Origin: Leptotrichia buccalis C-1013-b
GTDB taxonomy: Bacteria > Fusobacteriota > Fusobacteriia > Fusobacteriales > Leptotrichiaceae
Length of the DNA stretch: 64,000 nt
Direction: 5' to 3'
NCBI RefSeq assembly: GCF_000023905.1
Contig: NC_013192.1
Location: 124,001 to 188,000, forward strand
In this document: positions 14,370 through 30,983 of the stretch, in pieces
Layout: each line of letters begins with the position of its first letter
How positions within the stretch are numbered: position 1 is the stretch's first letter
Position numbers and translations under genes: made by a program
Notes under the pieces: generated by a model
Told to the model about the DNA's origin: nothing
What the model saw: only the letters and a program-made list of their open reading frames with translations
Database searches by the model: none

Positions 14370-14440
14370 CGGATTTCATTCCCCAAAAATCAAAATATTT
14401 TTAATTCAATTATAGTGACATTTTATAAAAAATTACTAAG

Positions 14441-14611
14441 CAAAATTTCGTTGAAAGAAAAAGAACTGTTTGAAATTTTTGAATACAATTTGAACTATAA
14501 TTCGATTAAAGAGTTGAAAATATCTTTTATTAAAAACCGAGTTTTCTTTTTCTTTTATTAAGAAAGTTTTGCGTAGAACGGGGATGTAAGGGCATGGCGT
14601 TCGATGTCCTT
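14441..14611 (+). ncRNA. Structured element, copy 1 of 3
   Basis: A long stem pairs CAAAATTTCG...AAAGAAAAAGAA (14441-14465) with TTTTCTTTTTC...AAGTTTTG (14542-14571). The loop starts with AACTGTTTGA (14464-14473) and ends in GAG. GCGTAG follows directly at 14571, and then a terminal hairpin AAGGGCAT/ATGTCCTT (14588-14611). The same order of parts occurs at 23935-24049 and 30876-30983 with different stem sequences. Here the loop is longer, about 75 nt. It faces the convergent end of the DUF1934-like gene. It could be a small RNA or a REP/MITE-like element; the strand is assigned from the shared blocks. Confidence 0.5.
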
Positions 14612-14613
14612 GA

Positions 14614-14985
14614 TTAAATATTTATAAGTTGTATTTCTAAATTTATACTGTTTATTATTTCATTACTATGTATTATATCATATTCCAGTACTATTTTTCC
14701 ATTTTCTTTTTCAAATTTTTTTGTAAAAATTTCATATTTTCCTCGAAATTTTGTTGTAATGTAGGTAAATGAGGTATTTTTATTATTTTTAAATATTTGT
14801 TTGGAATTGATTTCACCATGTCGATAGATTTCGATGGAATCGATTTTATCGATGATTTTACAATTTCCGTATTCATCTTTATAATGGTATTCTTTTTTTT
14901 CTTCCAAATTTATTATTTTTTCCAGTTCAAATAATTTTTCATAATTTTGTTTAAAGTTATCCAAACTTTTAATTTTTATTTTCAT
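14614..14985 (-). CDS. DUF1934-like small beta-barrel protein
   Basis: This protein is about 123 aa if it starts at the ATG at 14985, which has GAAGGA 6 nt upstream. An in-frame upstream ATG at 15039 would overlap the preceding gene and lacks a site. The pattern of a short helical N-terminus, then SIEIYRHGE, SFTYITTKFRGKYEI, and an ending LEYDI...INLEIQL resembles DUF1934 (YwiB-type, lipocalin-like barrel). The function is unknown. It is the last gene of the minus-strand run from mevalonate kinase downward. Confidence 0.6.
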   Translation of the reverse strand: MKIKIKSLDNFKQNYEKLFELEKIINLEEKKEYHYKDEYGNCKIIDKIDSIEIYRHGEINSKQIFKNNKNTSFTYITTKFRGKYEIFTKKFEKENGKIVLEYDIIHSNEIINSINLEIQLINI

Positions 14986-15010
14986 TTTATTCCTTCGTTT
15001 TATTTTGGAT

Positions 15011-15430
15011 TTATTCATCTTCATCATTAAAAAAGTCATCTAAAAATTCTGACAAGTCTTCATCATCTTCGTCTTCATTATCAAAAAAATCAGTACCATC
15101 ATTTAATGCATCAAAGTTACTTTCATCATATTCTCCATCTACATTTTCATTTTTATCATATTCCCCAAAATCTTCATTCCAGTACATATAATCTTTGTCA
15201 GAACCATAATATTCATCATTCCATATTTCCAGAACCTGATCTTCTTCATCTTCATCCAAGTCATATAACTCTTCTTCGATGCTGTCATAGTAAAAGACTT
15301 TTTTTTCCCCAGTTTCACTATCACAAACTAAATATTCCTTATCTCCTACCGTAACATTGGAAAGGCAAGTATAGCCTTCCACATCTCCCTCATTATTAAT
15401 TCTTTCAAATTCTTCCCCAGCAGAATACAT
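15011..15430 (-). CDS. DUF1292-like acidic protein
   Basis: Residues about 15-80 carry the DUF1292 pattern (a two-stranded core around VGDKEYLVCD, then KVFYYDSIEEELYDLDEDEE). The remainder is an extremely acidic tail of Asp/Glu with Asn and Phe, probably disordered. The length is 139 aa. DUF1292 proteins are common next to ruvX/alaS-type housekeeping genes in Firmicutes; their role is unknown. It starts 12 bp after rlmH with GGAGGG before the ATG. Confidence 0.65.
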   Translation of the reverse strand: MYSAGEEFERINNEGDVEGYTCLSNVTVGDKEYLVCDSETGEKKVFYYDSIEEELYDLDEDEEDQVLEIWNDEYYGSDKDYMYWNEDFGEYDKNENVDGEYDESNFDALNDGTDFFDNEDEDDEDLSEFLDDFFNDEDE

Positions 15431-15442
15431 AATTTCCCTCCA

Positions 15443-15913
15443 TTATTTATGATATTTTATATTATTATTAATTGAAATCCATCTGTATATTTGCTCTGTC
15501 AAAATTAATCGCATAAGCTGATGTGGAAATGTCATTGGTGAAAAGCATAGCCTAAAATCTACAATTTTTCGCAATTTGTCATTTACACCGTTTGAACCAC
15601 CTATTATGAAATTAATTTCGCTGTTTGTCATGGAAATTTTTTCTATTTTATCTGCCATTTCTTCAGAAGATAGCATTTTTCCGTTTAAGTCAAGCAAAAT
15701 ATTGTACGAATAATTTTTTTTTGAAATAGCATTTATTATTCTTTCAGTTTCTGAATTTACTGCATTTTCAATCCCCTTGTTATCATCTTCTTCAGCTAGT
15801 TCAGTAATATCGAGTTTTATGTATTTTGACAACCTTTTTGAAAACTCAGCTATTCCCTCTTTTATGTATTTATCTTTTATTTTTCCAATACACACTACAC
15901 TAATTCTTATCAT
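15443..15913 (-). CDS. rlmH: 23S rRNA (pseudouridine1915-N3)-methyltransferase
   Basis: This SPOUT-family enzyme methylates pseudouridine 1915 of 23S rRNA on the assembled ribosome using SAM. The family's knotted SAM site is visible as FIIGGSNGVND, followed by LCFSPMTFPHQLMRLILTEQIYRW at the C-terminus. Its 156 aa is the standard length. Confidence 0.95.
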   Translation of the reverse strand: MIRISVVCIGKIKDKYIKEGIAEFSKRLSKYIKLDITELAEEDDNKGIENAVNSETERIINAISKKNYSYNILLDLNGKMLSSEEMADKIEKISMTNSEINFIIGGSNGVNDKLRKIVDFRLCFSPMTFPHQLMRLILTEQIYRWISINNNIKYHK

Positions 15914-15974
15914 ATTTTTTCCTTATTGTCAAAAGTTTTTTCATTTTTTTACTAAATTTTCTCAAGTTTTACTC

Positions 15975-18050
15975 TTATTTTCTTCTTCCAAACATTTTGT
16001 CCAAATCATTCTTACTTAATTTTACAATAATTGGACGCCCATGCGGACACGTATATTTTCCAACTTCATGAATCCTTCTCACCATATTCTGCATTTCAAA
16101 CATATCAAGCTTTTGTCCAGCCTTCACAGCTCCCTTGCACGACATCGAAATAATGATATTTTCCCGCAAATCCTTTATTTCAACTTCATTTTTCAAGTCC
16201 ATAAGCAGCTGCAGAAATACATTTTCAATGCTATCCCGAAAGTCAAAGGCAGGAACAGCACGAATCACAATTTCATCTTCTGAAAATTCATCAACATCAA
16301 ATCCAAAATCTCTAAAAATTTCGATATTCTCAAAAATAATATTTTTTTCAATTCCTGTAATTCCCATTTTCAGAGGCAATAATAAATGCTGCGACTCCAA
16401 CTTCTTATTATAAAATTTATCCTTTAGCTCTTCATACAAAATTCTTTCGTGAATAATATGTTGATCATAAATTTCCAGTTCCTCATCCCTACGAACGAGA
16501 ATATATGTGTCAAAAATCTGCCCTAGAATATCATAATGAAATTGTTTTCCAACATGCTTTTCAAACGTTCCAACTTTATAATAGGATTTATTTTCAGTAT
16601 TTTCATTTATAATATCAAAATTTCTGTGTTCACCAGAATTTTTGTAATTTTTAAAATTGCTATTATGTTTCCATTTTTTTGTCTGAAATTTATCTTCAAT
16701 TTCAAAGTTTTCCACATTATTTTCCACAATTTTATTTGAATTTTTATTCATTTTATTCCAGATTTCATCAAGTTTTGAGCTATTTTCGTTTTTATTATTT
16801 ACAAAATTTTTATCACTTGAAAAAGTATTATATGTAATATTTTCGGAATTATCAGAAAACTCAGAATTTCTATCATTTTTATTAAAATTAATTGCTGAAA
16901 AATTATCTTTCTCATTTGAATTTTTAGTATTTTCTAAAATTTTTCCGTCAAAAGTTTCCAAACTTATAACTTTTTGGTTTTCCCCCTTCAAAACATCATC
17001 GGAAAACAAGTCATCCTTTTCCAGAGAGACATTCTCATTAATGTTAATATTTTTCTTTATCAGGTCAATATTAGGTTGCCAATTTTCTCTGTCATTGTAG
17101 TAAAAAAAGTCATCAATTGCTGATTTTATTTCATTATAAACGATTTTATCATTTGAGAATTTTATTATCTTTTTGGATGGATGAACGTTTACATCTATTT
17201 CCTTTGGATCAGTATTGTAAAAAATAATGGCAAATGGGTATTTTCCCTTCATTAGTTTAGTGTAATAGCCGTCTATAACAGCACGTTCAATAGTTGCTGA
17301 CTTTACATATCGGTTATTTACAAAAGTAAACATAAAATCCTTTGAACTTCGTAAAATTTCTACGTTACCTAAATATCCATATTCAAATTTTTTCAAATTT
17401 CTCAAAACTGACTTTCCAAATAATTCAAGGATTGTATTGTCAATCCCTTTTCCACTTGTCTTTATCGTACTTTTTCCATCTAATTCAAGCGAAAATGCCA
17501 CATTACTGTTTGAAAGTGCTTCCTTTAGTACAATATCCCTGATTTTACCATATTCTGTTGACATTTTTCGCAAAAATTTCCGTCTGGCAGGCGTATTGTA
17601 AAATAAATCCCTGACTTCCATTTCTGTCCCGACATTTCTCGAAACTTCCTCAAATTTTCTCACAACTCCGCCATAACAGCCAATTTTGTATCCCACAGGG
17701 CTATTTTCGGAACGTGTAGTAATCGTAAGTTTAGACACCGCCGCAATAGATGACAAAGCCTCTCCACGAAATCCATAAGTGTTTAAGTTAAAAACATCTT
17801 CCTTTTCCTTAATTTTAGAAGTAGCATGCCGCTCCACTGACAAAAGCGTATCGTCCTTATCCATCCCAATTCCATTATCACTCACCTTAACATCAGTTCC
17901 AGCTTTAAAAACCTCAATTTTTATCATCGTAGCCTTCGCATCCAGTGAGTTCTCAATCATCTCCTTAATCATCGAAGCTGGATTTTCCACAACTTCCCCA
18001 GCGGCAATAATATTTGACACTTTTTCATCTAGTATTTTTATATATCCCAC
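15975..18050 (-). CDS. mutL: DNA mismatch repair protein MutL
   Basis: This protein couples MutS mismatch recognition to strand incision. The N-terminal GHKL ATPase has MIENSLDAKA, DNGIGM and TYGFRGEAL. A long Asn/Lys/Glu-rich linker (about 330-490) follows, then the dimerisation/endonuclease domain with YDQHIIHERILYEE (DQHxxxExxxxE metal motif) and CPHGRP. MutL here therefore probably nicks DNA itself, as in bacteria without MutH. GTG start with AGGAGG upstream. MutS is not in the window. Confidence 0.95.
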   Translation of the reverse strand: MGYIKILDEKVSNIIAAGEVVENPASMIKEMIENSLDAKATMIKIEVFKAGTDVKVSDNGIGMDKDDTLLSVERHATSKIKEKEDVFNLNTYGFRGEALSSIAAVSKLTITTRSENSPVGYKIGCYGGVVRKFEEVSRNVGTEMEVRDLFYNTPARRKFLRKMSTEYGKIRDIVLKEALSNSNVAFSLELDGKSTIKTSGKGIDNTILELFGKSVLRNLKKFEYGYLGNVEILRSSKDFMFTFVNNRYVKSATIERAVIDGYYTKLMKGKYPFAIIFYNTDPKEIDVNVHPSKKIIKFSNDKIVYNEIKSAIDDFFYYNDRENWQPNIDLIKKNININENVSLEKDDLFSDDVLKGENQKVISLETFDGKILENTKNSNEKDNFSAINFNKNDRNSEFSDNSENITYNTFSSDKNFVNNKNENSSKLDEIWNKMNKNSNKIVENNVENFEIEDKFQTKKWKHNSNFKNYKNSGEHRNFDIINENTENKSYYKVGTFEKHVGKQFHYDILGQIFDTYILVRRDEELEIYDQHIIHERILYEELKDKFYNKKLESQHLLLPLKMGITGIEKNIIFENIEIFRDFGFDVDEFSEDEIVIRAVPAFDFRDSIENVFLQLLMDLKNEVEIKDLRENIIISMSCKGAVKAGQKLDMFEMQNMVRRIHEVGKYTCPHGRPIIVKLSKNDLDKMFGRRK

Positions 18051-18122
18051 AATTTATCCTCCTTTTTCTATGTTATTTTTTTATTTTTGTTGTAAAATTT
18101 TAAGTTTTTGCCTTAAAAATCC

Positions 18123-18686
18123 TTAATTTTGAGTAAATGAGTTAAAATGCAAATTAAAGAGCATCGCTTTGTTGAATTGCGGGCTGTCTTGCATTTCCCA
18201 ATTATCGTTATGTTTTACATATACAATATCAAACGTTTCTTCAAAATATCTTAGATTAGGATCATTCAATTTTTCATTTACAGATTCTTTTAAAAATTGC
18301 GTAGTCAATTTTATCATTTCATCATCTGACCTTACAGTAGGATTTGGTGATTTCAAAAGTCTTTGTCTTTCTTCTAATATTTTATTTTTAAATATTTCTA
18401 TTGCTCCTGATAAATCAGGATACTTTATAGTAATATTTACGATAATTTTATTTTTATTTTCTTCTGTTGTTTTATTAATTTTATAGGACATTTTTTTATA
18501 TCCTTCATCAATTGCTTCAAATGTTATAGCAGCCATTTTATCATGATTTGATGATTTATAACCACCGTTTCGAGTGAATTCTATTAAATTTTTTAAATCA
18601 TTTTCAATAATTTTTTTATCATTTTGACAACTTGTTATTGTAGATATTAAGATTAATCCTACAATAATTGATAATATTTTTTTCAT
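18123..18686 (-). CDS. Putative lipoprotein of unknown function
   Basis: Starting at the ATG at 18686, the protein has a lipoprotein signal with lipobox TITSC (C20) and a 187-aa total length. The mature part is polar and alpha/beta in appearance, with no family I recognise. An upstream ATG at 18713 overlaps the previous stop codon as ATGA, but would add the acidic stretch MKKEEEEIN, which is unsuitable for a signal peptide. AAGGAGG lies 14 nt before 18686, which is longer than ideal. It is translationally close to the membrane protein upstream, suggesting the two work together. Confidence 0.6.
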   Translation of the reverse strand: MKKILSIIVGLILISTITSCQNDKKIIENDLKNLIEFTRNGGYKSSNHDKMAAITFEAIDEGYKKMSYKINKTTEENKNKIIVNITIKYPDLSGAIEIFKNKILEERQRLLKSPNPTVRSDDEMIKLTTQFLKESVNEKLNDPNLRYFEETFDIVYVKHNDNWEMQDSPQFNKAMLFNLHFNSFTQN

Positions 18687-18712
18687 ATTTATTTCTTCTT
18701 CCTCCTTTTTCA

Positions 18713-19270
18713 TCAGTTTTTCTTTTTTAAGTAAAATACAGCTATCATACAGACAATTAATCCAGTAACCGCAGGCTTTAACATTGATAATGCACTCTTT
18801 CCAGTCAAAAGGTAGCTGTTAAATATTTTAAGAATTGCAGTTGCTATTAAAATTAATAAAAGTAATTTCCAGTTTTTTGTCCAAGTTGAAACTATTATAA
18901 AAACAAAAAAAATTATAACAGTAAAAAGCAGGACAATTTTATCTATTGTCCATCCACTTTTCAAATAATTTGCTTCAAAATTTAAAAATTTTACAATTTC
19001 AGGATTAGTTATATTTGGCTTTGGAAACCAGAACATACTCGTAAATAGACCAAAAATAGAGATTGAAATTCCTGAAAACAGCTTTTTGTACGCACTCCAG
19101 ATTATTGGAATAATGAATAGTGGTCTGGTGTACCAGCTTAGCATATTATGATGCCTCTGAAATACCCACATAAAAAATATGTCATTACTAAAAAATAAAT
19201 GAATTAAAATTATTGTCGTAATTCCAAATAATATGCCTATAACTATGTCAAATTTTCTTAATTTATCCAT
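18713..19270 (-). CDS. Integral membrane protein of unknown function
   Basis: This 185-aa hydrophobic protein has about five predicted membrane segments (near residues 9-28, 48-80, 110-128, 133-150 and 162-181). A HHNMLSWYTRP stretch sits between the first two. No known family is recognised. Its stop overlaps the possible first start of the lipoprotein gene. It lies between mvaD and mutL in the minus-strand run. Confidence 0.6.
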   Translation of the reverse strand: MDKLRKFDIVIGILFGITTIILIHLFFSNDIFFMWVFQRHHNMLSWYTRPLFIIPIIWSAYKKLFSGISISIFGLFTSMFWFPKPNITNPEIVKFLNFEANYLKSGWTIDKIVLLFTVIIFFVFIIVSTWTKNWKLLLLILIATAILKIFNSYLLTGKSALSMLKPAVTGLIVCMIAVFYLKKKN

Positions 19271-19386
19271 TATTCAAAATCCTTTCCAAAATATATCTTA
19301 ACTCTTTTAATACTAAACTGATAAAATTAATCAATTTCAGAAGTAATCATAATGTTTTATTTTCAATTTCAAATTAATTTTCACAA

Positions 19387-20370
19387 TTATAATTTCACAG
19401 TCTTACTCACAATAATCTTATACTTTTCTTCAAAAATTCCTGCTAATTTTTCCAAATCATCTTCCAGACAAAGCACCTTTACATTAGGCCCCGCATCCAT
19501 CGTAAAATAGCATTTTTCTCCATTATTTCTCAAATTTTTTACAAAATCCATTGCTTCGTAAGTTTTTTCATTAAAATACGAAAATGGTGGATTTGCAGTT
19601 TCAGTTGTTTTGTGCATTCTAAGAGCATTCTCTTCTGTCAAAATTCCTACTTTTTCTAAATCATTTTCAGCAAGATATTTTTTCATATTTACAAAGTCAA
19701 TTTCCGATTGTTTTACCCACTCATCAAAATATGTTGAAGTTTTGGCGCAAAGCTCCATTCCATTTCGGCTTGAAATTTCCTTTTTATTTTCATTCAGCAC
19801 AAGCACAATCATTGCCAGTTTCAAATCTGTCTTTACCTCATAAATTTCTCCAGTATCCTTATCCCAAGCCGCAACAGGTCCAAAAAAGCTTCTCGAAGAT
19901 GAACCAGAACCAAATTTTGAAATTTGTGCAAGTTCAGATTGCGTATAGTTTTTTCCAAAAAGTTCATTACATGCTTTTATTACAGCCGATAAACCGCTTG
20001 AACTGGAAGAAAGTCCCGCAGCCGTTGGCATATTATTTGTTGTAGAAATTTTTACCTTTTGACTTCTATTTCCCCTAAACAAATCCACAACCTTACTAAT
20101 TTTTTCTGTATGCACACTATCCTGCAATTCTCCATTCAAATAAAACAAATCTGTCATGTCTGAATATTTATCTTTATAATTTTCGCTTTTTATTTCTTTT
20201 TCAACTGCAATTTTAATATCGCTATCATTTATAAATTCCATCTCTGTTTCTGTAAACATATCGTTAAGAGTCAGGGAAATGCTGCTTGTAGAAGGTATCA
20301 TTTTTTCTGCATTTTTTTTTCCCCAGTATTTTACAATCGCAATATTAGCATAAGATTTGACTTTTACCAT
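19387..20370 (-). CDS. mvaD: Diphosphomevalonate decarboxylase
   Basis: This GHMP-family enzyme uses ATP to turn mevalonate diphosphate into isopentenyl diphosphate. The N-terminal signature is SYANIAIVKYWGKK and the ATP loop is PTAAGLSSSSSGLSA (around residues 110-124). A DAGPNVKVL stretch near the C-terminus is also typical. The length, 327 aa, is normal. Together with the mevalonate kinase gene 87 bp upstream it shows a mevalonate pathway. Phosphomevalonate kinase is not in the window. Confidence 0.94.
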   Translation of the reverse strand: MVKVKSYANIAIVKYWGKKNAEKMIPSTSSISLTLNDMFTETEMEFINDSDIKIAVEKEIKSENYKDKYSDMTDLFYLNGELQDSVHTEKISKVVDLFRGNRSQKVKISTTNNMPTAAGLSSSSSGLSAVIKACNELFGKNYTQSELAQISKFGSGSSSRSFFGPVAAWDKDTGEIYEVKTDLKLAMIVLVLNENKKEISSRNGMELCAKTSTYFDEWVKQSEIDFVNMKKYLAENDLEKVGILTEENALRMHKTTETANPPFSYFNEKTYEAMDFVKNLRNNGEKCYFTMDAGPNVKVLCLEDDLEKLAGIFEEKYKIIVSKTVKL

Positions 20371-20457
20371 TTTTTCTCCTTTATTTTCTTCTCTTTAAAA
20401 TTATTTGATTATCTCTCAAATTATATTTTATATTTAATTTTTTTTAACATAATTCCA

Positions 20458-21348
20458 TTAAATTTTCTCCATCCAAATATTTTCCGCTCCACATTTTATC
20501 AGTCCTTCTTTTATCTTTTCTACAATATCCAAATTTTTTGCAAGTGCAATTACACAGCCTCCTAATCCTCCACCAGAAATTTTTGCTCCACTTGCTCCAT
20601 TTTCAATTGCTGTTTTTACAAATAAGTCTGTTTTTTCAATGGTTATGTTCAAATTTCTGAGTTCTATGTTTGCCTTTGTCATAATTTTCCCTATTTTATT
20701 GACTTTTTCTTCTTTGGATTGAATATTTTCAGTTAAGATTTTAGCCATTTCATCTGTCAATTTTCCTAATTTCTTTAAAGAACTGTCAGCATTACTTCCT
20801 AAATTTTTAACATTCTGAATTGCTTCGCTTGTATTGCCATAAATTCCTGTGTCTGCAATTACAAGGTATGCATCAAGATTTAAGTCAATGTATGAAAATC
20901 CCTTGTTCTTTATAAATTTTATGGCTTTGTCGCTAAGGCAAGTTTTGGCATCCAGTCCGCTTGGTGTACTGTGGGCTACAATTTCTGCCGTGTGAACCAG
21001 TTTTTCCAGCAATTCATCTTCCAAATTTTCTCCAAAATAATCAAATACAGCACGAATTGCCACAATACTTACTGCCGCTGAAGATCCCATTCCACGTTTT
21101 GGAGGGATTTGAGAGGTAACTTTATATTTTATTTTTGCATTTTCTTTTTTTAAATATTTTAACGCAGTAAAAAGAGCAACTGAAAGAGTATCTGTCTTAT
21201 TATGGAAACAGCTGCTTTTGGCTTCTTCCACAATACATTCAATTCCAATTTTTTTTAGTGGAATAGCGATGGCAGGATAGCCGTAAACAACAGAATGTTC
21301 TCCAATTAATATTATTTTACTGTGTGATTTTCCGATACCTTTTTTCAT
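20458..21348 (-). CDS. mvk: Mevalonate kinase
   Basis: This GHMP kinase phosphorylates mevalonate. Visible motifs are GEHSVVYGYPAIAIP near the N-terminus, the ATP loop PKRGMGSSAAVSI and the C-terminal KISGGGLGGCVIAL. The start at 21348 is preferred (AAGGAAA upstream, giving 296 aa); an in-frame ATG at 21435 would add a non-conserved 29-residue extension. It is probably the first gene of the isoprenoid/mutL run. Confidence 0.92.
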   Translation of the reverse strand: MKKGIGKSHSKIILIGEHSVVYGYPAIAIPLKKIGIECIVEEAKSSCFHNKTDTLSVALFTALKYLKKENAKIKYKVTSQIPPKRGMGSSAAVSIVAIRAVFDYFGENLEDELLEKLVHTAEIVAHSTPSGLDAKTCLSDKAIKFIKNKGFSYIDLNLDAYLVIADTGIYGNTSEAIQNVKNLGSNADSSLKKLGKLTDEMAKILTENIQSKEEKVNKIGKIMTKANIELRNLNITIEKTDLFVKTAIENGASGAKISGGGLGGCVIALAKNLDIVEKIKEGLIKCGAENIWMEKI

Positions 21349-21512
21349 CGTATTTTCCTTTTTTTTACTAAAATTATACAAATTTATTATACTAGAAAAG
21401 TTATAATAATCCAATACCTTTTTATATATTTTCAAACTTTTTCAAAATCAAAAAAATTAATAAAATCTAGAATTTGAATAGAATACTATAGCTTTTTTAG
21501 TACAAATAAATA

Positions 21513-21549
21513 AAAAAACTCCAAGTTCATAAAAGACTTAGAGTTTTTA
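21513..21549. terminator. Terminator near the small secreted protein gene (copy 2)
   Basis: AAAACTCCAAGT pairs imperfectly with ACTTAGAGTTTTT, with A and T tracts on the two sides. It can end the minus-strand transcript of the small secreted protein and is laid out like the one at 12726-12762. Confidence 0.65.
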
Positions 21550-21607
21550 TTGTGTTCTCAAACCTAATAAAATTAAAGTAATGAGAACTAAACTAATTTT
21601 GACGGGT

Positions 21608-21636
21608 ACAGTCATAGCTTTTGAGTTTAATTTAAA
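21608..21636. repeat. Short dispersed repeat (copy B)
   Basis: The block CAGTCATAGCTTTTGAGTT matches copy A at 1055-1084 nearly exactly and resembles the inverse of 43373-43404. Confidence 0.4.
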
Positions 21637-21654
21637 ATTTTTATAGTTTTATTT

Positions 21655-21906
21655 TTAACCTGCAAGAAGTTTTGCACCAGTTAAACGTAATCCTCTATAT
21701 CCATTACCTTCAAAATAAATTTTGTAAGTATATCCGCTTGAAACAGAAGATAATCTACCACTTGTAAATTGGAATGTTCTTCCTGATTCGTTGCTTCTGC
21801 AAGTTACAGATCTACTTGTTTTACTTGTAACGTGGCATTCGTTAACAAATCTTGAAAATCCTAATGCTCCAAATGCTAAACATCCTACTAAAATTAATTT
21901 CTTCAT
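21655..21906 (-). CDS. Small secreted protein, paralog of 12427-12678
   Basis: This 83-aa protein has a signal peptide (MKKLILVGCLAFGALGFS), two cysteines in the mature region and a C-terminal YKIYFEGNGYRGLRLTGAKL. It is alignable over its full length with the 12.4-kb protein, including the cysteines. It has its own promoter and terminator, and a strong AAGGAG site. The family is unknown. Spacing of aromatic and Gly residues suggests a small all-beta domain; this is a guess. Confidence 0.75.
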   Translation of the reverse strand: MKKLILVGCLAFGALGFSRFVNECHVTSKTSRSVTCRSNESGRTFQFTSGRLSSVSSGYTYKIYFEGNGYRGLRLTGAKLLAG

Positions 21907-21953
21907 GCTAATCAGCTCCTTTTTAAATTTTTTATTATACTGTTATTTATTAT

Positions 21954-21982
21954 AGTATATCATATAAGTTTAAAAAATTCAA
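21954..21982 (-). promoter_or_regulatory. Promoter of small secreted protein gene (copy 2)
   Basis: On the minus strand, TTGAAT (21977-21982) and TATACT (21954-21959) are separated by 17 bp, embedded in AAATACTTGA as at the paralog's promoter. Confidence 0.65.
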
Positions 21983-22050
21983 GTATTTTTTTAATTTTTT
22001 TTGAAACAATTTTGTTTATTATGTATAATTACGATTTTTTAATTGTGGAT

Positions 22051-22083
22051 AATAAAAAAGAGCATTTATAAAGTCATGCTCTT
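22051..22083 (-). terminator. Terminator of ffh
   Basis: AAGAGCAT and ATGCTCTT form an 8-bp stem; reading the minus strand, it is followed by TTTTTTATT. Confidence 0.75.
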
Positions 22084-22197
22084 GTTATATTTAAATAATT
22101 TGTTTTACCGTAATTTATATTATTTGGAATAAATATGTATAATTTTTTTTCATAGTGTTAGTTTTTGAAGTTTTGACAGTTCTAAAGAATTTGTAAA

Positions 22198-23538: not shown

Positions 23539-23757
23539 TATTGATTTTTCTCCTTGTTTTTATATTTTTTAATGTATATTAATAAATCGCTTCAAAAACA
23601 AAATAATAAATAAAAATAAATCTAGAATTTGAGTAAAAAATCTAAATTTTTATGTTTTGTTTTAAAGTGACTTTACTGTGTTATTTTTTAATTGTGATGG
23701 TTATAGGATAACATATTATGGGGAAAAAGACAAGAGATTGGAAAAGGAGGTTTTAGG

Positions 23758-23883
23758 TTATTTGTTTTTTAGATTTTGATAAATTAAATCAAGACATTTA
23801 CGTTTGTGTTCAGTTTGAGGATGAACGTATAAATTTAGAGTGATGTTTATGCTTGAATGTCCTAAGAACATTTTGTTTAATAA
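23758..23883 (-). pseudogene. Tyrosine recombinase (phage-type integrase), C-terminal remnant
   Basis: On the minus strand an uninterrupted stretch of about 40 codons ends at TAA (23758-23760). It reads MFLGHSSINITLNLYVHP and then a QTEHKRKCLDL tail. This is the extreme C-terminus of a tyrosine recombinase: the LGHSS box with its catalytic histidine, and the tyrosine nucleophile in LYVHP. A stop codon lies just before it (23884-23886), and no upstream domain is visible, so the gene is lost. It marks the left edge of the accessory island. The 23539-23757 stretch holds nothing recognisable. Confidence 0.8.
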
Positions 23884-23934
23884 TTATTTTTCTTTTAACA
23901 AAATAAATTTTTAAGTTTTAATAAACCGACGAAG

Positions 23935-24049
23935 CTTTTATTTGTTCAACTACAACTGTTTGATGACTGCAAGGAGGAGTTTCGGAGTTGGGAAAATAAA
24001 AGTCGTAGTCTAGCCATAGGTACAGGATTTGCGGCAATGAAGAAGCCTG
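23935..24049 (+). ncRNA. Structured element, copy 2 of 3
   Basis: CTTTTATTTGTTCAACTACAA (23935-23955, 20-odd nt) pairs with the stretch at 23981-24002, which reads TTCGGAGTTGGGAAAATAAAAG in parts. The loop begins with AACTGTTTGA (23954-23963) and ends in GAG. TCGTAGTCTAGC follows at 24003, then a short 3' hairpin CAGG/CCTG (24023-24049) around GGCAATG. It lies between the integrase remnant and the helicase promoter. The flanks on both sides are repeated at 59285-59370 without this element, which suggests insertion or precise loss. Confidence 0.5.
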
Positions 24050-24161
24050 CGAAAATAAATAAAGAAAAAACATAATAAAAATAGTAAAAACTGTTATTAA
24101 ACAAAAGACTATTAATTTCATTTGTAAAATATGGAAAACATAATAAAAATATTTGATTTTA

Positions 24162-24170
24162 TGGTATAAT
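24162..24170 (+). promoter_or_regulatory. Extended -10 promoter of the helicase-mod operon
   Basis: TGGTATAAT (24162-24170) is a perfect -10 box with a TGn extension. No good -35 box is seen at the right spacing. The leader to the helicase start is about 100 nt. Confidence 0.5.
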
Positions 24171-24276
24171 ATTCAATGAAAAAAATTTTGGATTAAGTAT
24201 CAAACTTTGTTAAAAAATGGGGAAATAAAAAGTTAATTGAGGTTGTAAAAACTAAAATGTAGAGGATATTGAAAAA

Positions 24277-27200
24277 ATGGAAAATTCAGCGAAAAAATTT
24301 ATTGAAAAGATAAATGAAGTTTTGGCAGAAAAAGAGAATGCTGTGGTAAATATCATTAATGATAAATTAACCATATCAGTTTTTACGGCATTGGAAAAAA
24401 ATTTAAAAAATGTGAAGGAAATAAATTTTATTATAAGAGATACAAAGTTTATTCCTAAAAATGATGAAATATCAAGAGAATTTGAGATAACGCCTAATGA
24501 TATTTTGTATAATTCTTATGATATAAAGGAAAAAAATAAGTTAAAGCATTTTGCTGAGGCAAAGGCTATGTATGATTTTATAAAAAATAACGTAAATGTC
24601 AGAAAAGTAAAGCCATATCAGAAAGTAAATGGGAATATTTTAATAATTGATGATGATTTTATGATTCAGGGGACGTCATCACTTGAAATATATGAAAAAA
24701 GGGCAAATCGCTATGATTTTGATACAACAATAAAAGGAGAAGCAGAAAAATCCCAAATACTTGGCATGTCGAGAATATATGATGAAATTTGGAATAATAA
24801 TGATGTAACACAGGATTATAAACAGGAATTATTAGAAAGCCTTGAATTTGTTTATAAAAATTATAATCCTGAATTTTTGTATTACTTCACGTTAAATGAA
24901 CTTTTTGGAGATAAGCTAGACAGTGGAGTTGAGAGATTTGAAAATGATAGTGATAAATTTAAAAAGACTGAAATTTGGAATTCACTTTTTGATTTTCAGA
25001 AAGACTGTGTCGTTTCTGCTATACAAAAACTTCAGAAATATGGAGGATGTATAATTGCTGATTCAGTAGGATTGGGAAAAACATTTGAAGCACTTGCTGT
25101 GATTAAATATTTTGAAATAAGAAATGATAATGTATTAGTTCTTACACCGGCAAAACTTTATGATAACTGGCGTTCTTTTACAGGAAATTATAAAGATAGT
25201 TTTTTGAATGAAATGTTTAATTATAAAATTATGTTTCATACAGATTTATCAAGAACCAAGGGAGAATCAAAATCAGGTTATGAACTAAGCAGATTTGACT
25301 GGTCAAAATTTGATTTAGTTGTGATAGATGAGTCACATAATTTTAGAAATCGGATTGCTAAATATGATGAGAATGATGAATTAATAATGAATAGATATTT
25401 TAAACTACTTCATGATGTAATAAAAAGTGGTAAAAATACGAAAGTCCTTTTATTGTCTGCAACTCCAGTAAATAATAGTCTTGTAGATTTAAAAAATCAA
25501 ATTTCAATTATAACATCAGATCATGATGATGCATTTAGTGAACAAGGTATTTCGAGTGTGGGATATTTACTGAAAAAAGCGACACAAGTTATAAATGATT
25601 GGGAAAAAGAAGGAAGTCAGAAAAAAGATGAATTACTGGATAACTTGCCATCAGATTTTTATAAACTGCTAGAAATGATGACAATATCAAGAAGTAGAAA
25701 ACATATTACAAATTATTACGGAACAAAAAATATAGGTAAATTTCCTCAAAAGAATAAGCCAATTACATATTATCCAGAAATTGATAGTCAAAATCAGTTA
25801 TTGAATTTTAAAAATACAAATTCTATTTTAGAAGAATTAAATTTATCAGTTTACACACCAACTAAATTTATAAAAAGTGAAAAATTAAATTATTATATCA
25901 ATAAGTATAAGTTATCAGGAAATCGTGGTGGGAAAATGGATTTTGATACACAGTCGAAAGGTCTTGTATATTTGCATAGAACAAACTTGTTTAAAAGATT
26001 GGAAAGTTCAGTTTTTTCATTTTCTGAAACCTTGAAAAGATTGATTGAAAATATTGACCAGACAATAGAAAATTTAAATAAGGGACAGCAGATTGAAGAA
26101 AATCTTGATGTGGAAAATGAAGATGAAATCTATATTGAAAGAAGTAAATATGAAATAAAGGTAGAAGATTTGAGAATAAATGCCTATCTTGAGGAGTTGT
26201 ATAACGATAGAGATATTGTAAAAAGAATATATGATGAAACATTGATTTTATTGAAAGAAGATAGGGATAACAAGATTCATGAATTAGAAAAAATTGTAGG
26301 AAATAAAGTTGATAACACACCGTATAATCCAGGAAATAGAAAAATATTGATTTTTACAGCATTTGCCGATACAGCAAACTATATCTATTCTAAGTTGTTA
26401 AAAAAATTTGAGAGGAAAAATATTAGCATTGCAAGTGTTACAGGTAAAGGAGTAAAAACTTCAAATAAAAAGGTAAAAGAGGATTTTCACAGTATTTTGA
26501 GTGCATTTTCGCCAAAATCTAAACTAAAGATTGAAATTCCTCAAGATGAACAAATAGATATTATAGTTGCAACAGACTGTATTTCAGAAGGACAGAATTT
26601 GCAAGATTGTGATACGGTAATAAACTTTGATATTCAATGGAATCCTGTGTCACTTATTCAGAGATTTGGAAGAATAGATAGAATTGGAAGTAAAAATGAT
26701 AATATACAAATGATTAATTTTTTCCCAAATGCAGATTTGAATGAGTATTTAGATTTGGAGAGAAGAGTTAAAGGGAAAATGACAACATTAAATATAGCTT
26801 CTACTGGGGATGAAGATATGCTTAATCCTGAAATGAATGACTTTAATTTTAGAAAAAGACAATTAAAAAAACTGAAAGAAGAAGTAATTGATATAGAGGA
26901 TACAAATGAAAATATTTCATTGACAGACCTTAATATGAACGAATATCTGTATGAACTTTCAAATTATGTGAATAATCATAAGGAAATAAACAAAATACCA
27001 AAAGGAATTTATTCTGTAACCGAAGGTGAACAAAAGGGAGTGTTGTTCTGCTTTAAACATAGTAAAAATGATGCTAAACCTAAAAATGACAGTTCCCTTT
27101 ATCCTTATTACCTGATTTTCGTGGATAACAATAAAGAAATTTTATTTAAAAACAGTCAGGCAAGGGAAGTTATAAAACTTTTCAGACAGCTATGCTATGA

Positions 27201-27429
27201 GAAAAATGAAGTTCAGGAAAAAATTTTAAAGGAATTTTTTAAAGATACGAAAAATGCTACTGAAATGGGATTTTATTCAGAATTGCTTAATACTGCGGTA
27301 AATAGTATAAAAGGTGAAGAGGAAGAAAAGGCTGTTCAGACAGTGTTTGACTTTTCAGGATTTAATAACAATTTTAAAGATGACACAACAGATGATTTTG
27401 AGTTGATATCTTTTCTGGTGGTGGGTTAA
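24277..27429 (+). CDS. SNF2/DEAD-box-type helicase with degenerate PLD-like N-terminal domain
   Basis: This 1050-aa superfamily-2 helicase has Walker A in ADSVGLGKTFEA (about 261-272), Walker B VVIDESHNF (about 348-356), motif III LLLSATPVN, and in the second RecA domain ATDCISEGQNLQ and LIQRFGRIDRIGS. Before the helicase core a stretch NGNILIIDDDFMIQGTSSL (about 107-126) resembles a phospholipase D HKD site, but the histidine and other key residues are missing, so this part is probably inactive. It leads an operon with DUF4391 and mod. Such helicases accompany restriction systems and DISARM-like loci; its role here is inferred from context only. Confidence 0.8.
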   Translation: MENSAKKFIEKINEVLAEKENAVVNIINDKLTISVFTALEKNLKNVKEINFIIRDTKFIPKNDEISREFEITPNDILYNSYDIKEKNKLKHFAEAKAMYDFIKNNVNVRKVKPYQKVNGNILIIDDDFMIQGTSSLEIYEKRANRYDFDTTIKGEAEKSQILGMSRIYDEIWNNNDVTQDYKQELLESLEFVYKNYNPEFLYYFTLNELFGDKLDSGVERFENDSDKFKKTEIWNSLFDFQKDCVVSAIQKLQKYGGCIIADSVGLGKTFEALAVIKYFEIRNDNVLVLTPAKLYDNWRSFTGNYKDSFLNEMFNYKIMFHTDLSRTKGESKSGYELSRFDWSKFDLVVIDESHNFRNRIAKYDENDELIMNRYFKLLHDVIKSGKNTKVLLLSATPVNNSLVDLKNQISIITSDHDDAFSEQGISSVGYLLKKATQVINDWEKEGSQKKDELLDNLPSDFYKLLEMMTISRSRKHITNYYGTKNIGKFPQKNKPITYYPEIDSQNQLLNFKNTNSILEELNLSVYTPTKFIKSEKLNYYINKYKLSGNRGGKMDFDTQSKGLVYLHRTNLFKRLESSVFSFSETLKRLIENIDQTIENLNKGQQIEENLDVENEDEIYIERSKYEIKVEDLRINAYLEELYNDRDIVKRIYDETLILLKEDRDNKIHELEKIVGNKVDNTPYNPGNRKILIFTAFADTANYIYSKLLKKFERKNISIASVTGKGVKTSNKKVKEDFHSILSAFSPKSKLKIEIPQDEQIDIIVATDCISEGQNLQDCDTVINFDIQWNPVSLIQRFGRIDRIGSKNDNIQMINFFPNADLNEYLDLERRVKGKMTTLNIASTGDEDMLNPEMNDFNFRKRQLKKLKEEVIDIEDTNENISLTDLNMNEYLYELSNYVNNHKEINKIPKGIYSVTEGEQKGVLFCFKHSKNDAKPKNDSSLYPYYLIFVDNNKEILFKNSQAREVIKLFRQLCYEKNEVQEKILKEFFKDTKNATEMGFYSELLNTAVNSIKGEEEEKAVQTVFDFSGFNNNFKDDTTDDFELISFLVVG

Positions 27430-28143
27430 ATGATAAATATGCCGGAAAGATATGAAATTAATCAGGAAATAAAATTGAAAAATCTTATTCTAAAGGAATT
27501 TAAGCCTATTGAAAAAAAGAAAATAAAAGAATATATAAAATCAGTAACATTGAAATATATGATAAATGATGAGGAGATTCCAAGTGTAGAAGATGAAAAA
27601 TATAATTTTAAGGTAATTCAGTATTTTGATTTTGAAATAACTGATATAAAAAAAGCTGGATTTCTTGCCAATCTATATCAAGAATCAATTAAATCGCCAT
27701 GTATATTAAGATTTTACGATAATTCAAAAGAGTTGTATTCACTAGCTTTAAAAAGATTAAATCAAAATGATAGAAATGAAATAGTAGTTACAGATACTGT
27801 AATGACTGAAACATTTGATTTGTCAATGTCAGGTTCAGCAAAAAGGGAAGTGGAAAGAGTTTTAGACTATTCTAAAATCCTGAATCGAACTAACAAAGTT
27901 AATTTTTATTCAGAAATATTTATAAAAAATTACATTTTAAAAAATCGGAAGTATTATCAAAAGTCAGGAAATATTTTAGAAAGTTTAATATGGTATGACA
28001 GAAACAAAACGATTAATGTTTTTGAAAATTTTAAAAATCTTGTGATGTACAAGGAAAAAATAAAATCAACTATTAGAAATAGTGAGAAAGTAGAAATTAA
28101 TAAAAAAATCAGAGAGATAATTTCTGAATTGGATAAATATTAG
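27430..28143 (+). CDS. DUF4391 family protein
   Basis: This 237-aa protein starts directly after the helicase stop codon. The PERYEINQEIKLKNLI opening, the IQYFDFEITDIKKAGFLANLYQESIKSPCILRF core and the later VVTDTVMTETFDLS stretch match what I recall of DUF4391. That family is commonly encoded between an SNF2-type helicase and a type III methyltransferase. The biochemical function is unknown. It is probably a required accessory protein of the system. A second in-frame ATG at 27439 is also possible. Confidence 0.7.
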   Translation: MINMPERYEINQEIKLKNLILKEFKPIEKKKIKEYIKSVTLKYMINDEEIPSVEDEKYNFKVIQYFDFEITDIKKAGFLANLYQESIKSPCILRFYDNSKELYSLALKRLNQNDRNEIVVTDTVMTETFDLSMSGSAKREVERVLDYSKILNRTNKVNFYSEIFIKNYILKNRKYYQKSGNILESLIWYDRNKTINVFENFKNLVMYKEKIKSTIRNSEKVEINKKIREIISELDKY

Positions 28144-28158
28144 AATTTTGGAGGAAAA

Positions 28159-30120
28159 ATGGAAAATAATAAAATAAAAAAAGAGATAAATGACATAGTA
28201 AATGACAATTTAAAAGCACTGGAGCAATTATTTCCATCTGCTGTAAAGGATGGACAGCTGGATATAAAGGCATTGAAGGAAGAGCTGGGAGATTTTGAAG
28301 AAGTAACAACTGAAAAATATGAGTTAAACTGGTCAGGGAAACAAAATGCAAAAAAAATAGTACAGCAGGGAATTGGAAACAAAACATTGAAATTTGTAGC
28401 AAAAGATAGTAAAAATGCTGATACAACAGAAAATATCTATATCGAGGGAGATAATCTGGAAGTATTGAAACTGTTAAGACAGAATTATTACAACTCAATA
28501 AAAATGATATATATTGACCCGCCGTATAATACAGGAAATGATTTTGTCTACAATGATACTTTTAAAATGGATAAGGAAGAAAGTGACAAGGCAGAGGGAA
28601 TAATATCAGAAAATAACGAAAAACTGCAAAAAAATCAGAAGTCAACTAACAGATACCATGCAAACTGGCTGAATATGATGTATCCAAGATTGAAACTGGC
28701 TAGAGATTTACTTACTGATGATGGCGTTATATTTATAAGTATTGATGATAATGAGCAGGCTAACCTGAAGAGATTGTGTGATGAGATTTTTGGGGAGGAG
28801 AATTTTGTAGAAATATTTAGTTGGCAAAAAACTTCAACACCTCCTAATTTATCTAAGAAAACTAAAAAAAGTGTGGAATATATTTTATGTTATCAGAAAA
28901 ATGAATGTAAAACTTTAAAAGGACTAGTAAAAGAAAGTAAAAGTACTAATGGATTAATGAATCAATCAAATTCAATAGGAACTTTGGTATTTCCGCATGA
29001 AAGTGTTGAAACTTCAATAAAAAATGAGAAGTTAGAAAAAGGAATATATGGAACAGAGAGTTATGTTATAGAACTTTTAAGTGATGTAGAAATTAGGAAT
29101 GGAAAATTTTTGAATGATATAATATTAAAAGGGAAATTTAAATGGAGTCAAGATTATTTAGAAGAGCAAATAAAATTAGGAACAAAAATTTTTATAAAGA
29201 CAAAAGCATTGTCTCCATCATATGAAAAAGAAGAATACGATCCTGAAAAACCATGGAATATAATAGATAAAAATTTTGGCGTTGGAACAAATGAGAATGC
29301 TTCAGATGAATTAGATAATTTATTTTATAAAAATTTTTCAGATAAATTATATCCAAAACCAACAAGTTTAATTACATATTTATTAAATATGTTAGAATTA
29401 GAAAACAACATTATTCTTGATTTTTTCTCAGGCTCAGCAACAACAGCTCATGCCATTATGCAGTTAAACAGTGAAGATGATGGAAACAGAAAATATATAA
29501 TGGTTCAGTTACCTGAAACTACTGATGAAAAATCAGAAGCATTTAAGGCAGGGTATAAAAATATAGCAGATATTGGAAAAGAAAGGATCAGACGTGCTGG
29601 AGAAAAGATAAAACAGGAAATAGAAGAATATAATTCTAATTTGAAACTGGAAGAAGAGCCTAAAAAAGTTCCAGATATTGGATTTAAAGTATTTAAAGTA
29701 GATGATACAAATATAAAATGGTATGACTTGGAAAATTTCAATGAAGAAAGTCAATATTCTTTTGATGACCCTGATTCATTGGATTTTGTACTTGGAAGCA
29801 ATGATATTGATATTGTTTATGAAATAATGTTAAGACAGAATGATGTTCCGTTGTCAGAAAATCTGGAAGTGTTGACAAATATTGGAAATAGAACTTATCT
29901 GTATGCAAGTACATATCTGATTTGCCTTGAAACAGAAATAACAGAGGAAATGGTAGAAAAATTAGCTTCATTAGAGCCGTTACCAATAAAATTTGTATTC
30001 AGAGATTCAGCATTTAAGGATAATATTTCATTGAAGGATGAGACTTTTAGGAAGTTGAGAAGTTTGATTGAGAGAAATTCGGGAGAGAGTAAGGTTAGTT
30101 ATAGGGTTGAGTTTATTTAA
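28159..30120 (+). CDS. mod: Type III restriction-modification DNA methyltransferase (Mod)
   Basis: This SAM-dependent N6-adenine methyltransferase gives the Res-Mod complex its target site. The motif order is beta class: DPPYNTG (catalytic, residues 120-126) precedes the SAM-binding FFSGSATTAHA (about 420-430). The region between, about 215-400, is the target recognition domain and is more AT-rich than its flanks, as expected for a swapped module. The length is 653 aa, normal for the family. No simple-sequence repeat that would allow phase variation is visible. GGAGG precedes the ATG by 5 nt. Confidence 0.93.
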   Translation: MENNKIKKEINDIVNDNLKALEQLFPSAVKDGQLDIKALKEELGDFEEVTTEKYELNWSGKQNAKKIVQQGIGNKTLKFVAKDSKNADTTENIYIEGDNLEVLKLLRQNYYNSIKMIYIDPPYNTGNDFVYNDTFKMDKEESDKAEGIISENNEKLQKNQKSTNRYHANWLNMMYPRLKLARDLLTDDGVIFISIDDNEQANLKRLCDEIFGEENFVEIFSWQKTSTPPNLSKKTKKSVEYILCYQKNECKTLKGLVKESKSTNGLMNQSNSIGTLVFPHESVETSIKNEKLEKGIYGTESYVIELLSDVEIRNGKFLNDIILKGKFKWSQDYLEEQIKLGTKIFIKTKALSPSYEKEEYDPEKPWNIIDKNFGVGTNENASDELDNLFYKNFSDKLYPKPTSLITYLLNMLELENNIILDFFSGSATTAHAIMQLNSEDDGNRKYIMVQLPETTDEKSEAFKAGYKNIADIGKERIRRAGEKIKQEIEEYNSNLKLEEEPKKVPDIGFKVFKVDDTNIKWYDLENFNEESQYSFDDPDSLDFVLGSNDIDIVYEIMLRQNDVPLSENLEVLTNIGNRTYLYASTYLICLETEITEEMVEKLASLEPLPIKFVFRDSAFKDNISLKDETFRKLRSLIERNSGESKVSYRVEFI

Positions 30121-30153
30121 GGGAAGGAAATTAGGAAGGAAATAGATTTAAAA

Positions 30154-30861
30154 ATGGAAGAAAATTTTGAAAAAAAATTAGAAAATTTATTAAATGAGAT
30201 TCAAAAATTTTCGGATGAAGTTAGATTTGAATATGATTTAGGAACTATGAAAATATTAGTTTGTGAAACAGAAAAAGAATTTTGGGAAAAATATTATGAA
30301 TTTTATAATAAAAATGGAAATTATGCAAAATTTTTAGAATATAAAGAAAAGTTTAAAGATATAAATAATGAACTTTCTAATGAAAATAAAAATATTCAAA
30401 TTAATGAAACAATAGAAAAAATATACAACACATTTGATTACATAACATATATATTAAATATATATGAAAAACAATTAAGAGAAAATGAAATAGATTACGG
30501 ATTGAAAAAAATAAAGAAGTATAAAAATATTTTTCAAAATCAGAGAGCACAGATAGAATATTTAAAGAAAAATTATAAAAAAATATCAGATGAACAAAAA
30601 GAATACGATAGAAAAATATTAGAAATAATGGGGGTATTTTTAACAATTTTTTCTGTAATAGGATTTGGAGTTTCAAGTATTGCTAAAGAAAATACAAATA
30701 TTTCAACTGTATTTATGATTTATGGTGTTATTTTAATGACTATGAGCAGTCTATTTTATCTAATTAATTTTGATAAAAATTTTAAAGAGAAACTTTTAAA
30801 AATATCAGTTCCATTGATGATTGGAATATTATTAATAATATTTGGAAAATATATACTATAA
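30154..30861 (+). CDS. Coiled-coil membrane protein of unknown function
   Basis: This 235-aa protein has about 150 residues of charged, Lys/Glu-rich helix with coiled-coil character. At the C-terminus are three membrane segments (about 159-178, 188-207 and 216-234). It follows mod by 33 bp and is probably cotranscribed. The layout of a cytoplasmic helical sensor followed by a membrane block is seen in several defence effectors, but no named family is recognised and this role is a guess. Confidence 0.55.
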   Translation: MEENFEKKLENLLNEIQKFSDEVRFEYDLGTMKILVCETEKEFWEKYYEFYNKNGNYAKFLEYKEKFKDINNELSNENKNIQINETIEKIYNTFDYITYILNIYEKQLRENEIDYGLKKIKKYKNIFQNQRAQIEYLKKNYKKISDEQKEYDRKILEIMGVFLTIFSVIGFGVSSIAKENTNISTVFMIYGVILMTMSSLFYLINFDKNFKEKLLKISVPLMIGILLIIFGKYIL

Positions 30862-30875
30862 AGTAATCTGTCAGA

Positions 30876-30983
30876 GCATTTTTAGGTGCAGTCGAAACTG
30901 TTTGAGCATAGCGAGTTTTTCGGCTGTGCATAAAAATGTCGTAGACTAGCGTGGGTCAAGGGAGAAGGCGATGTTCTCCCTTG
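30876..30983 (+). ncRNA. Structured element, copy 3 of 3
   Basis: The sequence at 30876-30896 (GCATTTTTAGGTGCAGTCGAA core) pairs along its whole length with 30918-30940 (TTCGGCTGTGCATAAAAATG core). The loop begins with AACTGTTTGA (30896-30905) and ends GCGAG. GTCGTAGACTAGC follows, then a perfect terminator-like hairpin CAAGGGAGAA/TTCTCCCTTG (30957-30983) around GGCGATG. It begins 15 nt after the membrane-protein gene. The last hairpin lacks a T-run. This is the clearest of the three copies. Confidence 0.6.

Follow-up and report, generated by a model that had tools for sequence, protein, structure and literature searches.

Introduction

Intrastrand triplex repeats are the described bacterial sequences to which an element found in Leptotrichia buccalis C-1013-b appears, by analogy, most closely related in kind. 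The element occurs three times in the stretch analysed here (contig NC_013192.1, positions 124,001 to 188,000, forward strand; 64,000 nucleotides, hereafter the window), and it would add to such a repeat a conserved tip, a long hairpin stem (the rod) and a pseudoknot. The known triplex repeats, BoxC and PIT, in which a single strand doubles back on itself twice to make a triple helix, were reported to be chromosomal and always intergenic, to show no strand bias, to occur in inverted pairs and to be unlinked to phages or plasmids (Holder 2015, PMC4666352). The same work describes BoxC as a short G/C-rich motif in 262 proteobacterial genomes and cites Hoyne and Maher on such triplex repeats, also called TM-ECO (PMC4666352). 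BoxC/PIT repeats have been proposed to be host-used sites or instability hotspots.

The element shares with BoxC and PIT a chromosomal and intergenic location, inverted pairs and a predicted triple helix made from one strand. In contrast, the one BoxC pair that we read (L379) forms a single palindrome when folded and lacks, by eye, the CTGTTTGAGC tip and a rod with a pseudoknotted tail after it. Identity with BoxC/TM-ECO, whose arrangement is CCCTCNCCC N3-6 GGGNGAGGG N3 GGGNGAGGG, was rejected, those tails of the element that were listed being A/T-rich or of an AAGGG type. Both kinds coexist by eye on one Variovorax replicon (L288), on which a BoxC-type triplex sequence lies about 100-220 bases upstream of the element.

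Three further systems invite comparison. Repetitive extragenic palindromes (REPs) and REPINs, with their RAYT transposases, are dispersed intergenic palindromes, often inverted doublets, that fold as single strands; the element is longer, keeps its tip across phyla and has a tail predicted to form a triple helix. In telomerase RNA the pyrimidine linker of an H-type pseudoknot occupies the major groove and runs parallel to the 3' stem strand, a geometry much like that predicted for the tail. Unlike telomerase RNA, the element has no gene, such as one for a reverse transcriptase, that recurs beside it; it also exists in a purine-motif form and is a dispersed repeat. Miniature inverted-repeat transposable elements (MITEs) are likewise short, non-autonomous and multi-copy and fold into long hairpins, but in our element flanking inverted repeats are scarce, yet clear in one family, family B below.

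The whole element appears undescribed, and its type of tail is partly known. In the open-licence literature, searches by sequence letters returned nothing relevant and searches by words returned closely relevant work only on triplex repeats; the main text of Holder 2015 (PMC4666352) contains none of the terms "pseudoknot", "Leptotrichia" and "Fusobacteri".

Results

A covarying rod with a near-invariant tip

The tip, CTGTTTGAGC-NNN-GCGAGTTT, heads long hairpins in many phyla, and its 21-nucleotide consensus, CT-GTTTGA-GC(GNA)GC-G-AGTTT, is near-invariant. Among the genome-contig matches listed, 104 of 120 distinct ones carry GAA, GTA, GCA or GGA at the three variable positions, and a GNA triloop was found in 163 of 212 tips over all loci. 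The tip core, GC-GNA-GC, is predicted to be the known ultra-stable d(GCGNAGC) DNA mini-hairpin; a melting temperature of 78 °C is given for GCGAAGC in PMC4686876.

The arms of the rod scored at least 24 in 172 of 187 distinct elements, compared to 21 of 187 when arms were swapped, and at a stricter score the counts were 106 and 0. Under a scoring that treats G.T and A.C mismatches alike, isolated G.T on the tip strand outnumbered A.C by 160 to 84 in the 172 aligned rods. With one element per distant locus (97 used), the tip strand carried 97 isolated G.T versus 47 A.C, 117 G.A versus 26 C.T and 31 G.G versus 6 C.C, with A.A and T.T near equal (35 versus 30). These mismatch excesses demonstrate that the tip strand, and not its complement, is the one kept foldable.

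At one locus (L130) the strand complementary to the tip yields spurious open reading frame text (TRFAQTV), which might lead to small proteins being mis-annotated.

The source genome, a single contig of 2,465,610 bases of which the window is part, holds three related but distinct families, which we call A, B and C. Covariation was measured on 21 of 25 gathered copies (L006, L028, L045 and the plus-strand copy of L027 were left out). Both sides of the pair were altered, with pairing kept, in 18 of 22 base pairs, and 95.2% of the cells in the alignment paired, compared to 68.1% in shuffles. The covariation score was 0.808, compared to 0.270 in shuffled alignments and at most 0.211 when the structure was slid; the tested structure is a consensus predicted from this same alignment and is therefore favoured in the slid control. 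Selection for a single-strand fold is thus strongly supported. A first-pass annotation of the window had noted that the stems of its three copies differ and yet stay complementary, and had read this as compensatory change under selection for an RNA or single-stranded DNA structure; the covariation, the rod arms and the mismatch asymmetry bear out both points, and the genome does contain further copies.

That annotation had also recognised no named family. In agreement, an Rfam comparison of the whole window at the gathering score gave no match to the element, only ribosomal and transfer RNA elsewhere in the window. A relaxed search of five loci gave two weak microRNA-type matches, the best overlap being with mir-3747 on a family B copy (26.9 bits, threshold 63).

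A tail with a predicted pseudoknot and triple helix

After the rod, the tail runs in the order short segment A, linker L1 and second hairpin (B-loop-D). This second hairpin lies downstream of the rod in many elements, typically as GTTACTTTTn-NNCAAG-nAAAAGTAAC, and its loop is complementary to the segment just upstream (CTTGAT/ATCAAG, CTTGAC/GTCAAG, GTCGCC/GGCGAC, GGGCG/CGCCC). A qualifying hairpin was present in 105 of 187 elements; loop pairing reached at least 6 base pairs in 35% of these 105, compared to 7.6% with loops swapped, and a loop of six nucleotides is fully paired in many tails.

The pyrimidine linker between segment A and the hairpin mirrors the 5' strand of that hairpin. Forty-two pyrimidine tails have two T-runs in their linker and stem; in 40 of them the near linker run equalled the near stem run. 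Of 30 asymmetric stems, 28 fitted the mirror order and none the direct order, and for a match of both runs the counts were 21 versus 0. Such a pyrimidine tail (a hairpin with a mirror linker of at least 4) was found in 93 of 187 elements, and among 110 distant-locus elements in 54, versus 0 of 110 with shuffled flanks. In a looser linker test, which covered 73 tails, runs averaged 5.55, compared to 4.30 for swapped linkers (largest of 200: 4.58), and the linkers exceeded swapped ones at every run length. When linkers were compared to reversed linkers, runs of at least 6 numbered 36 versus 35, of at least 7, 27 versus 27, of at least 8, 18 versus 9, and of at least 9, 7 versus 4. A search with the tail pattern, which proves nothing alone, returned 67 distinct matches versus 106 in a reversed-sequence control that was not de-duplicated. 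As read from its letters, the tail can fold as a pseudoknot in which the linker would lie in the major groove along the B:D stem, parallel to the 3' strand.

In the Leptotrichia tail the mirror rule is kept in purine letters, with linker/stem examples such as GGGTT/GTAAGGG, AGGGTT/GCAAGGGAAAT, GTGGGT/GCAGGGAGAT and GGGAGT/GCAGAGGTAT. For 26 distinct pairs of families A and C (92 distinct places), the mirror register match was 0.86, compared to a swapped mean of 0.75 (maximum 0.81 of 500) and to at most 0.58 in direct order. The predicted triads are T.A-T and C.G-C in the pyrimidine tails of the other phyla seen, and G.G-C, A.A-T and T.A-T in Leptotrichia. Three tracts on one strand, by which the intrastrand triplex repeats of classes I-IV are recognised, are present at the level of sequence; the pyrimidine tails follow the mirror rule of class IV and those of Leptotrichia class I.

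Triplex-type tails also occur without an exact tip (L284-L287), after a rod in Pasteurella, Pseudoalteromonas and Aeromonas and with no clear rod in Burkholderia (L287), so the tail may have a wider distribution than the tip.

Two variations of the tail were also seen. In Parabacteroides (L259, L260) the tail hairpin is tandemly duplicated after one rod, and at three other loci (L127, L177, L199) a third G/C-rich hairpin, such as GCGCCGCCGGGCGC, lies by eye 3' of the triplex tail.

Distribution across bacteria and replicons

The tip was found in 25 of 98 Fusobacteriota genomes, with 144 matches versus 2 for the backward pattern, and 13 genomes of the same genus held 0 to 16 exact tips each. 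A scan of genome contigs gave at least 117 stretches with the tip, 80 of which were listed with titles. Among the matches listed were Bacteroidota (Bacteroides, Flavobacterium, Flammeovirga), Bacillota (Clostridium, Alkalibaculum, Lachnospiraceae), Pseudomonadota (Variovorax, Methylotenera) and further groups (Desulfobacterales, Campylobacterales, Nitrospirales, Gastranaerophilales and Vogelbacteria). Thirty genomes picked for holding the tip contained 1 to 75 copies each (300 matches versus 1 for the backward pattern).

Our searches of phages and plasmids gave few copies or none. No phage record matched the one query used, and no plasmid record matched a Bacteroides element. A proteobacterial query matched 14 of 72,556 plasmid records, all of at least 203 kb; of five that were opened, one carries xerC, dapF and clpB and another measures 4.9 Mb, and both look chromosomal. 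Viral contigs gave six stretches with the tip, of which three are one common sequence without a rod (by eye), one has a rod (L211) and one a tail (L209). In E. coli two queries with the element gave no match, and a BoxC-type query matched 85,040 chromosomal and 64 plasmid places.

Dispersal and genomic context

Copies of the element lie between unrelated genes and are mostly intergenic, and both tandem arrays and inverted pairs occur. In Parabacteroides (L259, L260) the elements stand in divergent pairs and in direct arrays about 322 bp apart. At one orthologous site, the divergent A/C pair of the source genome is absent in two aligned genomes of the same genus. Contiguous matches suggest absence in two more genomes at this site and in five genomes at a second one; site 3 of the empty-site test, which did not align centrally, rests on such matches. 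The suggestion of a REP-like mobile element in the first-pass annotation is strongly supported by this pattern of dispersal, pairing, arrays and presence or absence. A further suggestion there, an RNA partner of the restriction island, is not supported: other copies lie scattered through the genome, and the most frequent neighbouring gene family, by eye ABC-type ATPases, is found at 9 of the 117 listed distant loci.

In gaps between co-directional genes (five sets) the element was oriented with the genes in 53 cases and against them in 46; convergent gaps outnumbered divergent ones by 47 to 14. A role as a sense 3' untranslated region was rejected on this near-even count, yet for 100 of the 160 elements that were placed the upstream gene shares the strand of the element (P-value 0.002; the count leaves out 82 tips at the edges of loci and 7 with distant genes).

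Flanking inverted repeats scoring at least 12 were found in 16 of 161 distinct elements, a set in which near-identical family B copies had been collapsed, versus 2-3 in controls. A rerun recovered the ends of family B itself in 5 of 17 elements of the source genome, and of 100 distant elements 7 had inverted repeats (control 1). A general identity with MITEs looks unlikely on the count among distinct elements, yet the flanking repeats are clear in family B.

A folded single strand, probably DNA, and its rivals

Our preferred reading, held tentatively and at a confidence close to even, is that the element is a non-autonomous dispersed chromosomal repeat that acts as a folded single strand, probably of DNA rather than RNA, and is moved by a factor acting in trans. 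The fold, the dispersal, the presence or absence at orthologous sites and the choice of strand are demonstrated, and the DNA nature, the movement as a single strand and the enzyme are inferences. As proposed, the strand would become exposed, for example at a replication fork, and the GNA tip would nucleate the fold; in the folded form, linker L1 would run alongside the B:D stem and supply the third strand of a triple helix. A trans-acting enzyme would recognise tip and tail and copy or insert the element elsewhere on the chromosome, and in some hosts the element may have been incorporated into ordinary miniature transposons with terminal inverted repeats. Purine-motif triplexes are reported to be unable to form in RNA (Holder 2015, PMC4666352), and it is mainly for this reason that we infer DNA. 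Read from sequence, the GNA triloops together with the purine-motif mirror linkers make DNA more likely than the small RNA that the first-pass annotation had also suggested.

Several observations weigh against this reading. A recognisable pyrimidine tail is missing from about half of the elements, and this has lowered our confidence. In the looser linker test the reversed linker did nearly as well (5.37 versus 5.55), and C-G triads showed no excess over swapped controls (52 versus 52.5 in the 73 tails). In Leptotrichia the loop pseudoknot is weak (2-4 base pairs by eye), the triloop of family B is mostly ATA and not GNA, and the purine test covers families A and C. A fully paired six-nucleotide loop with a U-rich linker in the major groove is a classic feature of RNA, the G.T excess is expected of DNA and RNA alike, and the same-strand count of upstream genes could hint at transcription. 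The exact tip is patchy, being present in 6 of 395 Bacteroidota genomes, one of them the positive centre. The site alignments define neither insertion ends nor target duplications, and the presence or absence of a copy could reflect gain or loss. Searches for co-occurring Y1 (HUH) transposases and for neighbour genes revealed no mobilising enzyme: in Fusobacteriota, Y1 matches show no association with the element (14 of 25 tip-bearing versus 36 of 73 tip-less genomes; Fisher P-value 0.65), and 7 of 30 distant tip-bearing genomes have none.

A structured non-coding RNA, with the rod followed by a 3' triple-helix pseudoknot like that of telomerase RNA and acting either in regulation or as the RNA component of a retroelement mobilised in trans, is an unlikely alternative. 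Its appeal lies in the H-type geometry, with a U-rich linker parallel to an A-rich strand, in the fully paired loops, in the excess of G.T over A.C and in pyrimidine intrastrand triplexes, which do form in RNA (PMC4666352); the same-strand count of upstream genes raised it further in our estimate. That excess, however, comes mainly from convergent over divergent gaps, co-directional orientation being near even, and the RNA would have to accommodate purine-motif tails reported to be impossible in RNA, GNA triloops in place of RNA-type tetraloops and the lack of an Rfam match at threshold. Less likely again is a chromosomal site used by the host, or an instability hotspot, at which the folded strand would stall polymerases or bind a nucleoid, replication or repair protein and dispersal would be a by-product of recombination. 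This would be the same biology as BoxC, chromosomal, intergenic and in inverted pairs (Holder 2015), and few divergent gaps are occupied; but the patchiness among genomes of the same genus, the tandem arrays and as many as 75 copies in one genome look more selfish than essential.

That the element is cargo of ordinary MITEs moved by DDE transposases is improbable. Family B does often lie inside a repeat with ATACTAAACCCC...GGGGTTTAGTAT ends, which occur at 50 places at 3 or fewer mismatches, and by eye other terminal repeats flank the element in Flammeovirga, Alkalibaculum, Microscilla and Arcicella. Such repeats vary by host, however; they accompany few distinct or distant elements, and the window copies lack these ends by eye. 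We regard a REP/REPIN or IS200/IS605-type element mobilised by a Y1 (HUH) transposase as very improbable, despite the single-strand hairpins, the intergenic inverted doublets and the Y1 matches in 23 of the 30 distant tip-bearing genomes. Membership among REP/REPIN-RAYT systems was rejected for want of Y1 co-occurrence in Fusobacteriota and of a recurring neighbour gene, and three genomes of the same genus with 16, 11 and 9 tips (G070, G071 and G078) have no Y1 match. Conservation of the tip across phyla is also unlike REP families and counts against a Y1 origin.

A wider version of the preferred reading, the folded and mobile DNA strand, is possible but more doubtful: the elements would form a selfish class spanning phyla, a single-stranded DNA substrate with a mini-hairpin-capped rod and a triplex pseudoknot, read by a widely distributed and still undiscovered enzyme, whose triplex chemistry switched from pyrimidine to purine while the mirror rule was kept. 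Bacterial intrastrand triplex repeats were recognised years ago, and no role has been assigned to them. In the present element the predicted triplex forms a module within a larger fold, which covaries and carries a near-fixed 21-nucleotide tip shared by distant phyla. The tip offers a defined probe for a reader protein, and thereby a test of a selected function of DNA triple helices in cells; if an enzyme does move the folded strand, this would be a new kind of transposition.

The three copies in the window and their families

The first-pass annotation had described the same parts in the same order at three places, and all of the parts described are present at each. AACTGTTTGA occurs three times in the window, compared to 0.43 expected, and 0 of 100 shuffles reach three; genome-wide there are 29 exact sites (backward control 16), of which by inspection 17 are elements and 12 other sequence. 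The single family of three proposed in that annotation holds as to relatedness but divides into distinct types. Copy 1 belongs to family A, copy 3 resembles family B without its flanks, and copy 2 is related but divergent, its tip being a variant. With copy 3 as query, the source genome gave 16 strong matches including itself (E 1.7e-16 or better). Folded alone, copy 3 is strong (z -3.81 versus shuffles), and copies 1 and 2 are unremarkable (z -1.89 and -1.40). CGTAG directly after the stem is found at the copies described but is not universal, the sequence being CGTAA in 6 of 8 family A copies and CTTAGAC in family C copies. Similarly, the terminal hairpin is present in all three copies but is weak in copy 2 and mismatched in copy 1. 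The mirror rule was established on other copies; copies 1 and 3 lie outside that set and were judged by inspection. All features below are on the + strand.

In copy 1, the 5' arm of the rod (14440-14463) pairs with a 3' arm at 14546-14576, which has CGTAG at its end. Between them (14464-14545) the apical region runs from AACTGTTTGA through an inner hairpin to CCGAGTTTT, a tip with the long inner loop typical of family A. The purine linker L1, ACGGGGAT (14578-14585), mirrors the following strand at 5 of 6 positions, and the terminal hairpin, GTAAGGGCAT-GGCGTTCG-ATGTCCTT (14586-14611), contains mismatches and appears partly decayed.

Copy 2 has rod arms at 23926-23953 (5') and 23983-24010 (3'), in which GAC/GTC pairs stand where copy 3 has GTC/GAC, a compensatory change. 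Its variant tip, AACTGTTTGA...GAGTTT (23954-23982), is without the GC-NNN-GC core, and a linker and weak terminal hairpin follow at 24015-24051. In copy 3, the rod arms lie at 30868-30895 (5') and 30920-30946 (3', with GTCGTAGAC at its end) and enclose the tip AACTGTTTGAGC-ATA-GCGAGTTTT (30896-30919). Its purine linker L1, GCGTGGGT (30949-30956), contains GTGGGT, which mirrors GAGGGA of the hairpin's 5' strand at 6 of 6 positions, and the terminal hairpin is CAAGGGAGAA-GGCGATG-TTCTCCCTTG (30957-30983).

Elsewhere in the source genome, family C has 13 distinct places and sometimes lies head to head with family A. Two family B copies (L006 and L045) are longer by the same stretch of about 60 nucleotides (ATTGCGTAGCAATCTTGCC...), located after the linker and before the terminal hairpin ends.

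Genes neighbouring the window copies encode a class II tRNA synthetase, DUF1934, SRP54, a helicase, DUF4391 and a DNA methylase, and two proteins were unmatched. Copies 2 and 3 (23926-30983, both +) flank restriction-modification-type genes, namely a SNF2/ResIII helicase, DUF4391 and an N6_N4 methylase. Simple homologous recombination between the two copies seems unlikely because their sequences differ, and the arrangement is possibly a coincidence. Copy 3 is also present on another Leptotrichia contig (L114), in an apparently identical gene context.

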